64,000 nt of DNA from the NCBI GenBank assembly GCA_902623495.1, contig CACNTW010000001.1, positions 62,001 through 126,000 of the forward strand, in the 5' to 3' direction. This stretch comes from an uncultured Pelagibacteraceae bacterium. Its GTDB lineage: Bacteria > Pseudomonadota > Alphaproteobacteria > Pelagibacterales > Pelagibacteraceae. The translations under genes and the position numbers were made by a program. The notes under the pieces are model-generated. The model was not told the origin of the DNA. It made no database searches and saw only the letters and a list, made by a program, of their open reading frames with translations. Shown one piece after another: positions 3,476 to 60,603 of this stretch. How positions within the stretch are numbered: the first letter of the stretch is position 1; each line of letters begins with the position of its first letter.

Positions 3476-4365
3476 TGGATTGGGATAAATTAAAGATATT
3501 TCATGCAGTTGCTGAAGCTGGCAGCTTTACAAGTGCAACAGTAATACTAAATCTAAGTCAATCTGCAATTAGTAGACAAATTCAATCTTTAGAAGAAGAT
3601 TTAAAAGTTAAATTATTTGAACGTCATGCTAGAGGTTTAACACTAACTGAAAATGGAGAATATGTATTTAAAACAGCTCACGAAGTTATCTCCAAATTAA
3701 AAGAGGTAGAAACAACTTTAGGAGATAAAAAACATAAACCATCCGGAAAACTATCAGTAACAACCGTTGTTAGTTTTGGAACAACCTGGTTAACACCAAG
3801 AATACAAGAATTTATGCAATTAAATCCAGAAATTGAAGTTGAACTCATATTTGATGATAGGGAGTTAGATTTAAGCACAAGACAAGCAGATATTGGAATA
3901 TTTATGAGAAGACCGAAACAACTTAATTATATTCAAAAAAAGCTGATTGATATCAACTATCATATCTATGGATCACCAAAATACTTAGAAAAACATGGAT
4001 ATCCTAAGACAGTTAATGACTTGAATAAGCACAACTTTATTTCATTTGGTAGAGGAGCTCCATCTCCAGTTTATAATCCAGATTGGGCATTAAAACTTGG
4101 AATGAAAGATAATAAAAAAAGAAAAACAGTAATGAGAGTGAATAGTGTTTATGGTTTACTATTAGCTGTTCAAAGCGGTGTAGGACTAGCTGCAATTCCA
4201 GATTACTTAACTGTGAAACAACCAAATATTGTTAAAGTTTTACCAAGCGTTCAAGGTCCAACTACCGAGGCACACTTTGTATATCCTCAATCACTTAAAA
4301 ATGTTGCTAGAGTTCAAGCTTTTAGAAACTTCCTTTACAGTAAAATTTCTGAGTGGGAATTTTAA
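3475..4365 (+). CDS. LysR-family transcriptional regulator
   Basis: N-terminal HTH 'MDWDKLKIFHAVAEAGSFTSATVILNLSQSAISRQIQSLEEDLKVKLFER'. Confidence 0.92.
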   Translation: MDWDKLKIFHAVAEAGSFTSATVILNLSQSAISRQIQSLEEDLKVKLFERHARGLTLTENGEYVFKTAHEVISKLKEVETTLGDKKHKPSGKLSVTTVVSFGTTWLTPRIQEFMQLNPEIEVELIFDDRELDLSTRQADIGIFMRRPKQLNYIQKKLIDINYHIYGSPKYLEKHGYPKTVNDLNKHNFISFGRGAPSPVYNPDWALKLGMKDNKKRKTVMRVNSVYGLLLAVQSGVGLAAIPDYLTVKQPNIVKVLPSVQGPTTEAHFVYPQSLKNVARVQAFRNFLYSKISEWEF

Positions 4366-4398
4366 ATAATTTAACCAAAAAACAGTACTAATTGCGAT

Positions 4399-4435
4399 TG
4401 ATTATCAATTGCGACAATATTGCAATTGATAATCA
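4399..4435. promoter_or_regulatory. 14-bp perfect inverted repeat (TGATTATCAATTGC-9 nt-GCAATTGATAATCA); candidate iron-regulator operator upstream of fbpA
   Basis: Arms 4399-4412 and 4422-4435 are exact reverse complements; GATAAT-type hexamers resemble Fur-box elements; directly upstream of the iron-binding protein gene. Confidence 0.55.
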
Positions 4436-4510
4436 TTTTCATTGAGAATAGTTATCATCCGCATTGCAGGACAAATTACGTTTAATATAAATATAAATTT
4501 AAGGAGTAGA

Positions 4511-29501: not shown

Positions 29502-29527
29502 ATGGGTGGCTATAATTAGCCACCTAT
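29502..29527 (+). promoter_or_regulatory. Intra-operon hairpin between SBP and permease genes
   Basis: ATGGGTGGCTA-TAAT-TAGCCACCTAT, 11-bp stem with one G.U, ends 3 nt before the permease ATG at 29531. Confidence 0.8.
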
Positions 29528-29530
29528 ATT

Positions 29531-36402: not shown

Positions 36403-36463
36403 TGACTAAAATTTATAACTTATGTTTAATGGTTGTTTCATAAATATAATAAGAGAGGAAATA

Positions 36464-37438
36464 ATGAAACTAATTAAAACTTTTATTTCAGTTTTATTCT
36501 CTGCTTTTCTTCTATTCTCATCAACAAGTTCATTTGCAGTTGAAAAATTACATTTTTTAATTGGAGGTGGTGCTGGTGGTGGTTGGGATGGAACTGCTAG
36601 AGGTACTGGAGAAGCATTAACAAAAGCTGGTTTTTTGAAAAGTGCATCATTTGAAAACATGTCAGGTGGCGGAGGTGGTAAAGCTTTAGCTTACCTAATC
36701 AATAATGCTCCAAAAGACACAGTTTTAGTTCAGTCAACACCATTGGTGTTAAGATCTATTACAAGACATAAAGGTTATGTAAAAGGTACTGGTACATTAT
36801 CTTATAAAGATGTTAAACCAATTGCAGGTGTAATTGGAGATTATGGTGCAATAGTTGTAGCAAAAAATTCACCAATCAAAAATTTCAAAGATGCAGTTGA
36901 TCAATATCAAAAAGATCCAAAATCAATAAAAATGGCTGGTGGATCTGTAAGAGGAAGCATGGACCATTTAATTGGTGCGTTAGCTTTCCAAGCAGCTGGA
37001 GCAAATCCTAACGATGTGATTTATGTTCCATATGATGCTGGTGGAAAGGCACTTGCTGGACTTTTATCTGGAGAAACTCAAATACTTTCAACGGGTTTAG
37101 GTGAAGTAATGGGTGCTAGAGATCAAGTAAGAATAATTGGTATCACTGCTCCTGAAAGAGTAGGTGATGCACCAGAAGCTCCAACATTAAAAGAGCAAGG
37201 ATACGATGTTCAGTTTGTTAACTGGAGAGGTTTCTTTGCACCAAAAAGCATGAGTATGAGTGATTATAATAAAATCTCTAAAATGCTTGGCGATGTTCAA
37301 AAAACACCAGAGTGGGAAGCTGTTAGAAAAAGAAATGCATGGGTAAATATTTATAACCCAGGTTCTAAATTTGATGCGTTCTTAGAAAAACAAACAGTTG
37401 AAATGACAGCTCTGATGAAAAAACTTGGAGTAATATAA
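36464..37438 (+). CDS. Tripartite tricarboxylate transporter substrate-binding protein (TctC/Bug family)
   Basis: ATG 36464 with AGAGAGGA upstream; 'LHFLIGGGAGGGWDGTARGTGEAL', 'GGSVRGSMDHLIG'. Confidence 0.88.
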   Translation: MKLIKTFISVLFSAFLLFSSTSSFAVEKLHFLIGGGAGGGWDGTARGTGEALTKAGFLKSASFENMSGGGGGKALAYLINNAPKDTVLVQSTPLVLRSITRHKGYVKGTGTLSYKDVKPIAGVIGDYGAIVVAKNSPIKNFKDAVDQYQKDPKSIKMAGGSVRGSMDHLIGALAFQAAGANPNDVIYVPYDAGGKALAGLLSGETQILSTGLGEVMGARDQVRIIGITAPERVGDAPEAPTLKEQGYDVQFVNWRGFFAPKSMSMSDYNKISKMLGDVQKTPEWEAVRKRNAWVNIYNPGSKFDAFLEKQTVEMTALMKKLGVI

Positions 37439-37462
37439 TCTTTATAGATTATTAAAGAATGT

Positions 37463-37509
37463 AAAGCAGTGAGAATAAGTCCCACAAAATTTATCTCACT
37501 GCTTTTTTT
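37463..37509 (+). terminator. Rho-independent terminator-like hairpin overlapping the tctB start codon
   Basis: AAAGCAGTGAGA-19 nt-TCTCACTGCTTT (12-bp perfect stem) followed by T-run to 37509; the tctB GTG start at 37469 is inside the 5' arm. Confidence 0.82.
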
Positions 37510-37939
37510 AGTTCTATCAGTCTTTTATTTATACACAGCTTACAACATTCAAGTATTTGCATTCGATGAGAACGCACCATTTAATGCTAGGACTTTTCCA
37601 ATATATTTAGGTTGGGCAGGAATAATTTTATCAAGTTTAAAAATAATTTTACCTGAGAAAATAACTACAGAGGTAAATCACAAACACTTAGATTATAAAA
37701 GTATAATCTATCTAATTATTATCTCACTAATATATGCTGCTGTAATATTAAAAATTGGATACTTTATATCAACTTCTTTATTTCTTTTTGCATCTTACTA
37801 TTTCTTAGGTGAAAGAAGATGGGGACTGATGTTTATTTTATCTTTCCCATTTGTTGCTGCATTTATGTATTTGTTGCATGGTTTACTAAATATTTATCTT
37901 CGTGACCCTTTTTTAAAATACATAGGAGTTATGGGATGA
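37469..37939 (+). CDS. Tripartite tricarboxylate transporter TctB-family small membrane subunit
   Basis: 156 aa, 4 TM helices, between TctC and TctA genes; only plausible start is GTG 37469. Confidence 0.82.
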   Translation: MRISPTKFISLLFLVLSVFYLYTAYNIQVFAFDENAPFNARTFPIYLGWAGIILSSLKIILPEKITTEVNHKHLDYKSIIYLIIISLIYAAVILKIGYFISTSLFLFASYYFLGERRWGLMFILSFPFVAAFMYLLHGLLNIYLRDPFLKYIGVMG

Positions 37940-39435
37940 TCGAAGGAATATTAATTGGATTATCAACTGCGTTATCATTAACAAATATTTTAATGGTGAT
38001 GGTTGGTTGTTTTGCTGGGACAATAATTGGAATGTTGCCTGGACTTGGTCCAATGACTGCAATTGCATTAATGATACCAATTACTTACGGCTTTGATCCA
38101 TCAACTGGTCTAATATTAATGGCAGGTGTTTATTATGGAGCAGTATTTGGAGGATCTACATCTTCTATTTTATTAAATGCACCAGGAATACCAGGAACTG
38201 TTGCTACTGCATTTGATGGCTATCCAATGGCACAACAAGGTAAAGCAGGTAAGGCTCTAGCAATAGCAGCTTATAGTTCATTTGCAGGAGGAACAATTTC
38301 TGCAATTTTTTTATTAGTTGCAGCACCTAGTTTATCAAAAGTAAGTTTAGCATTTAGATCACCTGATTATTTTGCATTAATGATCTTAGGATTAACTGCA
38401 ATTTCTGCATTTTCATCTAAAGGACAGTTTTTAAAAGCAATGATGATGGTTGTTTTAGGATTAATGTTAGCTACAGTTGGTCAGGATTCATTGTCAGATA
38501 TAACAAGATTTACCTTTAACAATATGAATTTAACTGATGGAATAAGCTTTGTATTAATTGTGATGGCGACATTTGCAATGAGTGAAGCTCTAACAATTAT
38601 TTTTAGAGGAAAAGACCCTAACAGAGCTGCAAAACAAATCTCACTAACAGAATTAGGCTCAATTAAAGTAAATAAAGAAGAAACTATAAAAATGGCCAAA
38701 ACAATACCTAGGTCCTCAATACTTGGCTTCTTAATTGGTGTTTTACCTGGCGCGGGTGCAACAATTGCGTCTTTCTTAGCTTATGGGATGGAAAGAAATT
38801 ATGTAAATGAGGAAGAAAAACAAAAATTTGGAAAAGGTAGTGTTCATGGTTTATCAGCACCTGAGACTGCAAATAATGCGGCTTGCTCTGGTTCATTTGT
38901 TCCATTACTAACATTGGGAATTCCTGGAAGTGGAACAACTGCTGTAATGCTCGGAGCTCTTTTGGGATTTGGTATTCAGCCTGGACCAAGACTTTATCAA
39001 ACAAACCCTGAAATTTTTTGGTCGGTTATTATGTCAATGTACATTGGCATGGTAGTACTTTTGATTTTAAATTTACCTTTAATACCTTATATCGCTAGAA
39101 TTTTAGCAGTGCCTAGAAATTACTTGATTCCTTTAATTTTATTTTTTTCAGTAACAGGAATATATCTAATGTCATTTAACAATTTTGATATTTTTTTAAT
39201 GATAGGTATTGCTGTAGTTGCAACTTTTTTAAGGCTCTACGATTTTCCCATGCCACCTTTAATATTAGCATTTGTGCTCGGAGGATTAATGGAGGAAACA
39301 TTGAGAAGATCACTCTTAATAAGTGATGGTTCACCAAATTTTTTATGGGATAGACCTATAACACTAATAATATTATTGATAACAGTAACAATTGTTGGTT
39401 GGCAAATATTTTCAACTTTTAGAAAAAAAAGTTAA
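37936..39435 (+). CDS. Tripartite tricarboxylate transporter TctA-family large permease
   Basis: 'GMLPGLGPMTAIALMIPITYG', 'GGSTSSILLNAPGIPGTVATAFDGYPMA', 'AAPETANNAACSGSFVPLLTLGIPGSGTTAVMLGAL' pattern. Confidence 0.95.
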   Translation: MIEGILIGLSTALSLTNILMVMVGCFAGTIIGMLPGLGPMTAIALMIPITYGFDPSTGLILMAGVYYGAVFGGSTSSILLNAPGIPGTVATAFDGYPMAQQGKAGKALAIAAYSSFAGGTISAIFLLVAAPSLSKVSLAFRSPDYFALMILGLTAISAFSSKGQFLKAMMMVVLGLMLATVGQDSLSDITRFTFNNMNLTDGISFVLIVMATFAMSEALTIIFRGKDPNRAAKQISLTELGSIKVNKEETIKMAKTIPRSSILGFLIGVLPGAGATIASFLAYGMERNYVNEEEKQKFGKGSVHGLSAPETANNAACSGSFVPLLTLGIPGSGTTAVMLGALLGFGIQPGPRLYQTNPEIFWSVIMSMYIGMVVLLILNLPLIPYIARILAVPRNYLIPLILFFSVTGIYLMSFNNFDIFLMIGIAVVATFLRLYDFPMPPLILAFVLGGLMEETLRRSLLISDGSPNFLWDRPITLIILLITVTIVGWQIFSTFRKKS

Positions 39436-49573: not shown

Positions 49574-49610
49574 AACCCCTATTTATTCTCTATAAGTAGG
49601 GGTTTTTTTT
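49574..49610 (+). terminator. Rho-independent terminator between dctP and dctQ, directly abutting the dctQ ATG
   Basis: AACCCCTA...TAGGGGTT stem followed by a T8 run; ATG at 49611 follows immediately. Confidence 0.88.
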
Positions 49611-60570: not shown

Positions 60571-60594
60571 AATGGGGGTTATACAACCCCCATT
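60571..60594 (+). promoter_or_regulatory. Intra-operon hairpin between tctC2 and tctB2
   Basis: AATGGGGGTT-ATAC-AACCCCCATT, 10-bp perfect stem, no long T-tail. Confidence 0.82.
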
Positions 60595-60603
60595 TAAATC
60601 AAA

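Follow-up and report, generated by a model that had tools for sequence, protein, structure and literature searches.

A conserved RNA hairpin merged with the start of tctB after a binding-protein gene in Pelagibacteraceae: a candidate stoichiometry element

A strong RNA hairpin, H2, was identified at the junction of the first two genes of a tctC-tctB-tctA operon in the genome of a Pelagibacteraceae bacterium (SAR11 clade). H2 is merged with the first 14 codons of tctB and hides its start codon, and probably in this way one operon supplies far more binding protein than membrane transporter. A conserved RNA structure, its overlap with the tctB start, synonymous constraint in the coding sequence and an enrichment of hairpins after binding-protein (SBP) genes were directly supported. 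The window, i.e. the whole stretch of DNA analyzed, is 64,000 nucleotides long. The operon encodes a tripartite tricarboxylate (TTT) transporter. Its first gene, tctC (36464-37438, plus strand; Pfam PF03401, E 2.1e-14), encodes the SBP, and an alternative longer reading frame for it begins at 36422 in the ORF listing. The small membrane subunit is encoded by tctB (37469-37939, plus strand; PF07331, E 3.4e-15) and the large one by tctA (37936-39435, plus strand; PF01970, E 2.1e-151). The sequence of tctB and tctA overlaps in an ATGA, where the tctA ATG is shared with the tctB stop codon, and tctA has its own Shine-Dalgarno-like AGGAG. A sub-threshold Rfam match to Ruegeria Cis8_sRNA (43 bits against a cut-off of 58) was observed antisense to tctA at 38983-39110 on the minus strand; it may merely reflect the coding conservation of tctA.

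H2 spans 37463-37505 on the plus strand. Its 5' arm AAAGCAGTGAGA (37463-37474) is the perfect reverse complement of its 3' arm TCTCACTGCTTT (37494-37505), giving a 12-bp stem, and an inner helix of five pairs (37476-37480/37489-37493) cuts the apical region from 19 nt to a loop of 8 nt. The 3' arm runs into seven T (37503-37509, plus strand), the first three of which pair with AAA of the 5' arm; the run also encodes Leu12-Phe13-Leu14, and codons 9-14 of TctB are encoded by the 3' arm and the run together. The region 37440-37530 folded at -23.6 kcal/mol, compared to -10.5 +/- 2.4 for 200 dinucleotide shuffles (z -5.4), none of which was as stable. H2 was not called by a simple terminator scanner, because the scanner limits loop length and the apical region measures 19 nt. 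A preliminary description of this DNA had placed stem, loop and T-run at exactly these positions and had assigned residues 9-14 to the 3' arm and U-tract. Its claim that one sequence serves as protein code and RNA hairpin and also encloses the tctB start agrees with both the fold and the conservation described below.

The tctB start codon GTG (37469-37471, plus strand) lies within the 5' arm of H2. Its predicted unpaired probability was 0.0, the lowest of the 63 called genes in the window, and its start region was the most stable of the 63 when folded. No in-frame ATG, GTG or TTG was found 5' of the GTG before a stop codon is reached. The GTG was kept in all 81 distinct tctB orthologues and in 80/80 named loci, and several relatives have a good Shine-Dalgarno sequence 4-7 nt 5' of it. 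For these reasons GTG 37469 is taken as the sole plausible tctB start, as had been proposed. In some genera the stem reaches over an AAGGA Shine-Dalgarno sequence.

Orthologues of tctB were collected from SAR11 genomes of several genera, with protein identities of 63-100%, and yielded 81 distinct nucleotide sequences. With the G of GTG numbered 0, all ten core pairs (-6/36 to +3/27) were standard pairs in every one of the 81. On the tree, pair -5/35 underwent three switches between A-U and G-C, each on both sides jointly; the base at 35 is the third of the Leu12 codon, where the change is silent. At pair 8/23 A-U has turned into U-A, and several pairs shift to G-U. In a fixed-structure count on 20 diverse sequences 99.6% of cells were paired and the covariation score exceeded that of all 500 shuffles; when partners were slid along the same sequences, pairing dropped to 30-66%. 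The ten core pairs were also intact in 79 of 80 further named loci, with a stem mismatch in the remaining one (L121). Among the SAR11 genomes searched, a covariance model of H2 matched the tctB site only. In the rest of the class its matches were weak, lay away from tctB and were partly ordinary intrinsic terminators, e.g. AAAAGCAGTGATTTTTCACTGCTTTTT. A wider family of the same RNA was rejected on these grounds. No viral copies of the element were found.

The coding sequence of tctB bears the mark of the same structure. At codons with conserved amino acids, third-base changes averaged 2.0 parsimony steps per codon inside the hairpin versus 8.6 outside; parsimony steps are not fully independent of one another, and 0 of 100,000 random draws gave a value as low as that inside the hairpin. 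Across codons 3-13 the wobble positions show roughly fourfold stronger conservation than in the remainder of tctB. Leu11 is CTG in 81/81 sequences, though elsewhere in the gene CTG accounts for only 1.8% of the Leu codons. Constraint on synonymous sites in codons 1-14 and compensatory changes in the stem, both named in the preliminary description as ways of checking the hairpin, were thus observed, the latter in the joint switches at -5/35.

A stable stem followed by an adjoining U-rich tract, as in intrinsic terminators, is present at H2. By the terminator d-score, the hairpin and T-run scored 25.7 in the window, and 38 of 39 distinct tctB hairpin/tail variants scored above 0, the remaining variant falling below. 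Together with the matches of the covariance model to plain terminators in the class, these scores make terminator potential plausible for H2 and favor an origin as an internal terminator, with continued partial function as one. The U-run is interrupted by C in some genera, where it reads UUCUUUGUUUU or UUCUUC. TTT usage at Phe13 and Phe14 is 0.89 and 0.94, within the range of other tctB Phe codons (0.62-1.0). As the U content of the run does not exceed that of these codons, protection of mRNA without termination is a real rival.

Hairpins were found to be a common feature behind SBP genes in this genome. Nineteen such genes (loci L188-L206) were found by Pfam, and a gene was scored as having a post-gene hairpin if one with a folding energy of at most -15 kcal/mol lay no more than 90 nt from its stop codon. 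Such a hairpin was present after 16/19 SBP genes of this genome, versus 1/35 other co-directional genes, a control made up of window genes only with crude ORF calls (Fisher p 7e-10). The single control gene with such a hairpin ends at 4365; a strong inverted repeat, TGATTATCAATTGC...GCAATTGATAATCA, was observed at about 4392-4440, between this gene and a binding-protein gene at 4442. Many of the hairpins after SBP genes end in a U-run abutting the next ATG. One of them (49574-49610, plus strand), behind a DctP-type binding-protein gene, carries U8 and directly adjoins the ATG (49611) of the following gene. The window has a second TTT operon, where another hairpin (60572-60595, plus strand), without a good U-run, separates tctC2 from tctB2. 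A third (29504-29530, plus strand) comes between a binding-protein gene of the SBP_bac_3 type and the gene that follows. H2 has the position expected of an internal stoichiometric terminator, directly 3' of a 5' SBP gene and before the membrane genes. The hairpins of L188, L194 and L205, and likewise the one in dctQ, have no U-run and d-scores below 0, so termination is not a common property of the hairpins after SBP genes.

The dctQ hairpin, TTGCGAGC...GCTCGCAATG, was found in another part of the genome, in a TRAP operon, and lies inside the coding start, in codons 4-6 and 18-20. The gene (locus L190, G000:C2, 168403-168894, minus strand) directly follows a DctP binding-protein gene. Its codons TTG, CGA, CTC and GCA are invariant in 24/24 distinct orthologues of the genus; CGA is unused elsewhere in dctQ, and CTC accounts for 1.4% there. 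The exact wobble test gave p 0.0002, on four codons only. No U-run adjoins the stem. Judged from sequence, this hairpin is a second coding-embedded element, conserved and unrelated to the one in tctB. Beside the TRAP operon (L190:2535-3520) two adjoining pilin-like genes with near-identical N-termini (MKNKGFTLIELLVVVAIIGILAAVGVVAYSGYT) were observed.

SBP transporters need their binding protein in excess of the membrane subunits. With moderate confidence, the most likely function of H2 is that of a constitutive cis-acting stoichiometry element, combining partial termination with occlusion of the tctB start. RNA polymerase leaving tctC would meet the strong hairpin and the U-rich tract, and a large share of transcripts would stop at this point as short tctC mRNAs with the stem as their 3' cap. 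In the tctCBA mRNA resulting from readthrough, the same stem is predicted by folding to bury the tctB GTG and, in some genera, the Shine-Dalgarno sequence, which would keep initiation at tctB low. Because of the ATGA overlap, synthesis of TctB and TctA may be kept low jointly, despite the AGGAG of tctA. Termination and occlusion would both act towards an excess of TctC over the membrane subunits. Such an element could have evolved by absorption of an ordinary hairpin behind an SBP gene into the 5' end of tctB, which is its probable origin. Termination and repression at H2 are both inferred.

The strongest alternative to partial termination, although a less likely one, is a protective hairpin. 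The whole operon would be transcribed, an endonuclease would cleave tctBA, and H2 would block 3'-to-5' exonucleases and stabilize tctC mRNA. A precedent for protective hairpins is malE in E. coli. The dctQ hairpin, coding-embedded and without a U-run, fits such a role, and the U-run of tctB may be no more than incidental Phe codons. In differentially decaying operons of E. coli, wobble-conserved protective hairpins embedded in coding sequence favor the upstream gene, and SBP genes of ABC transporters are among those stabilized (PMC5927463). H2 resembles them in its structure within a coding sequence and in its wobble conservation. The E. coli hairpins, however, have no U-run, as is also the case in dctQ, whereas most distinct tctB variants keep a good one straight after the stem; their mean position is also 107 nt inside the gene and not over its start (PMC5927463).

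It is less likely still that H2 is a translational repressor only, in which case the stem would lower TctB and TctA synthesis by hiding the GTG and Shine-Dalgarno sequence and the U-run would be a by-product. The low accessibility and high stability of the tctB start relative to the other called genes agree with this, as does the reach of the stem over AAGGA in some genera. The GTG is, moreover, invariant, yet stem and protein would both survive a change to ATG combined with a synonymous CTG-to-TTG change at Leu11. Most other hairpins after SBP genes in the genome, however, precede the start codon, so occlusion is not their shared property.

Regulation of H2 as a conditional attenuator or riboswitch, toggled by a ligand, a protein or a translating ribosome, is considered very unlikely. 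In per-sequence folds a small AU-rich hairpin of 5-7 bp, H1 (37435-37452, plus strand), spans the tctC stop codon. It recurs throughout the genus, though its stem sequence differs, and a ribosome terminating there could influence how the RNA folds nearby. In other genera, however, H1 is weak or missing, for which reason it was also rejected as a core part of the element, and the distance from tctC stop to tctB start varies from 18 to 31 nt across relatives. With this spacing the stem would usually begin beyond the terminating ribosome, and tight translational coupling via the tctC stop is unlikely. H1 of locus L012 has a loop of the C(UUCG)G type. No Rfam match was obtained at the H2 site, even at E values up to 1, and identity with a known RNA family was rejected accordingly. 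The H2 loop is variable and no conserved aptamer-like loop was seen in it, nor was a conserved anti-terminator evident in the folds made of the region and its relatives. The tct genes are not mentioned in the main text of a survey of structured RNAs in Pelagibacter (PMC2704228). The preliminary description had regarded H2 as an attenuator coupling readthrough and translation, which implies regulation; with no aptamer-like loop, Rfam match or evident anti-terminator, this part of it was not upheld, and a constitutive hairpin setting the protein ratio fits the data better. Chance pairing of AT-rich membrane-segment codons with the leader, for which it may be said that U-runs arise freely from Phe, Leu and Ile codons, is refuted by the z of -5.4, the compensatory wobble changes and the rare invariant codons, and is hardly credible.

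Few cells on Earth are as abundant as those of SAR11, which rely on binding-protein transporters. How SAR11 cells obtain an excess of binding protein is not obvious from their compact genomes. The analysis predicts a general rule that can be tested, namely that nearly all SBP genes are followed by a hairpin, and in two cases the hairpin shares bases with the next gene. Tentatively, hairpins serving SBP excess could have been absorbed more than once, into the starts of tctB and dctQ, with 43 nt of tctB acting as terminator, mRNA 3' cap, start lock and code, an arrangement favored by genome compaction. In such genes the codons near the start are subject to selection at the RNA level, a point to be borne in mind in annotation and in evolutionary tests based on codons. 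The two parent mechanisms have precedents, and what is new is the enclosure of the start codon, although earlier descriptions may exist; the literature search, which was thin on subscription journals, found no SAR11 RNA-seq papers on binding-protein operons.

Hairpins in mRNA that sequester a start codon or Shine-Dalgarno sequence are a general known kind, and H2, with its GTG inside a stable stem, is like them. It differs in that this stem could in addition serve as a terminator and as an mRNA 3' end. With the E. coli protective hairpins and the malE-malF intergenic structure H2 shares a presumed advantage to the upstream gene and the involvement of SBP genes; unlike the E. coli set it has a U-run and a stem covering the start codon. 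In ABC importer operons of cellulolytic Clostridia, internal intrinsic terminators after the SBP genes set SBP excess by partial termination (PMC9045158). The arrangement of these operons is similar to that of tctC-tctB-tctA, with the SBP gene first, then a stable hairpin and U-rich tract, and the membrane genes next. The operon with H2 belongs to the TTT family and to a different phylum. The stem-loops of the Clostridia are intergenic, whereas H2 takes in the start of the following gene, from its initiation codon through codon 14.
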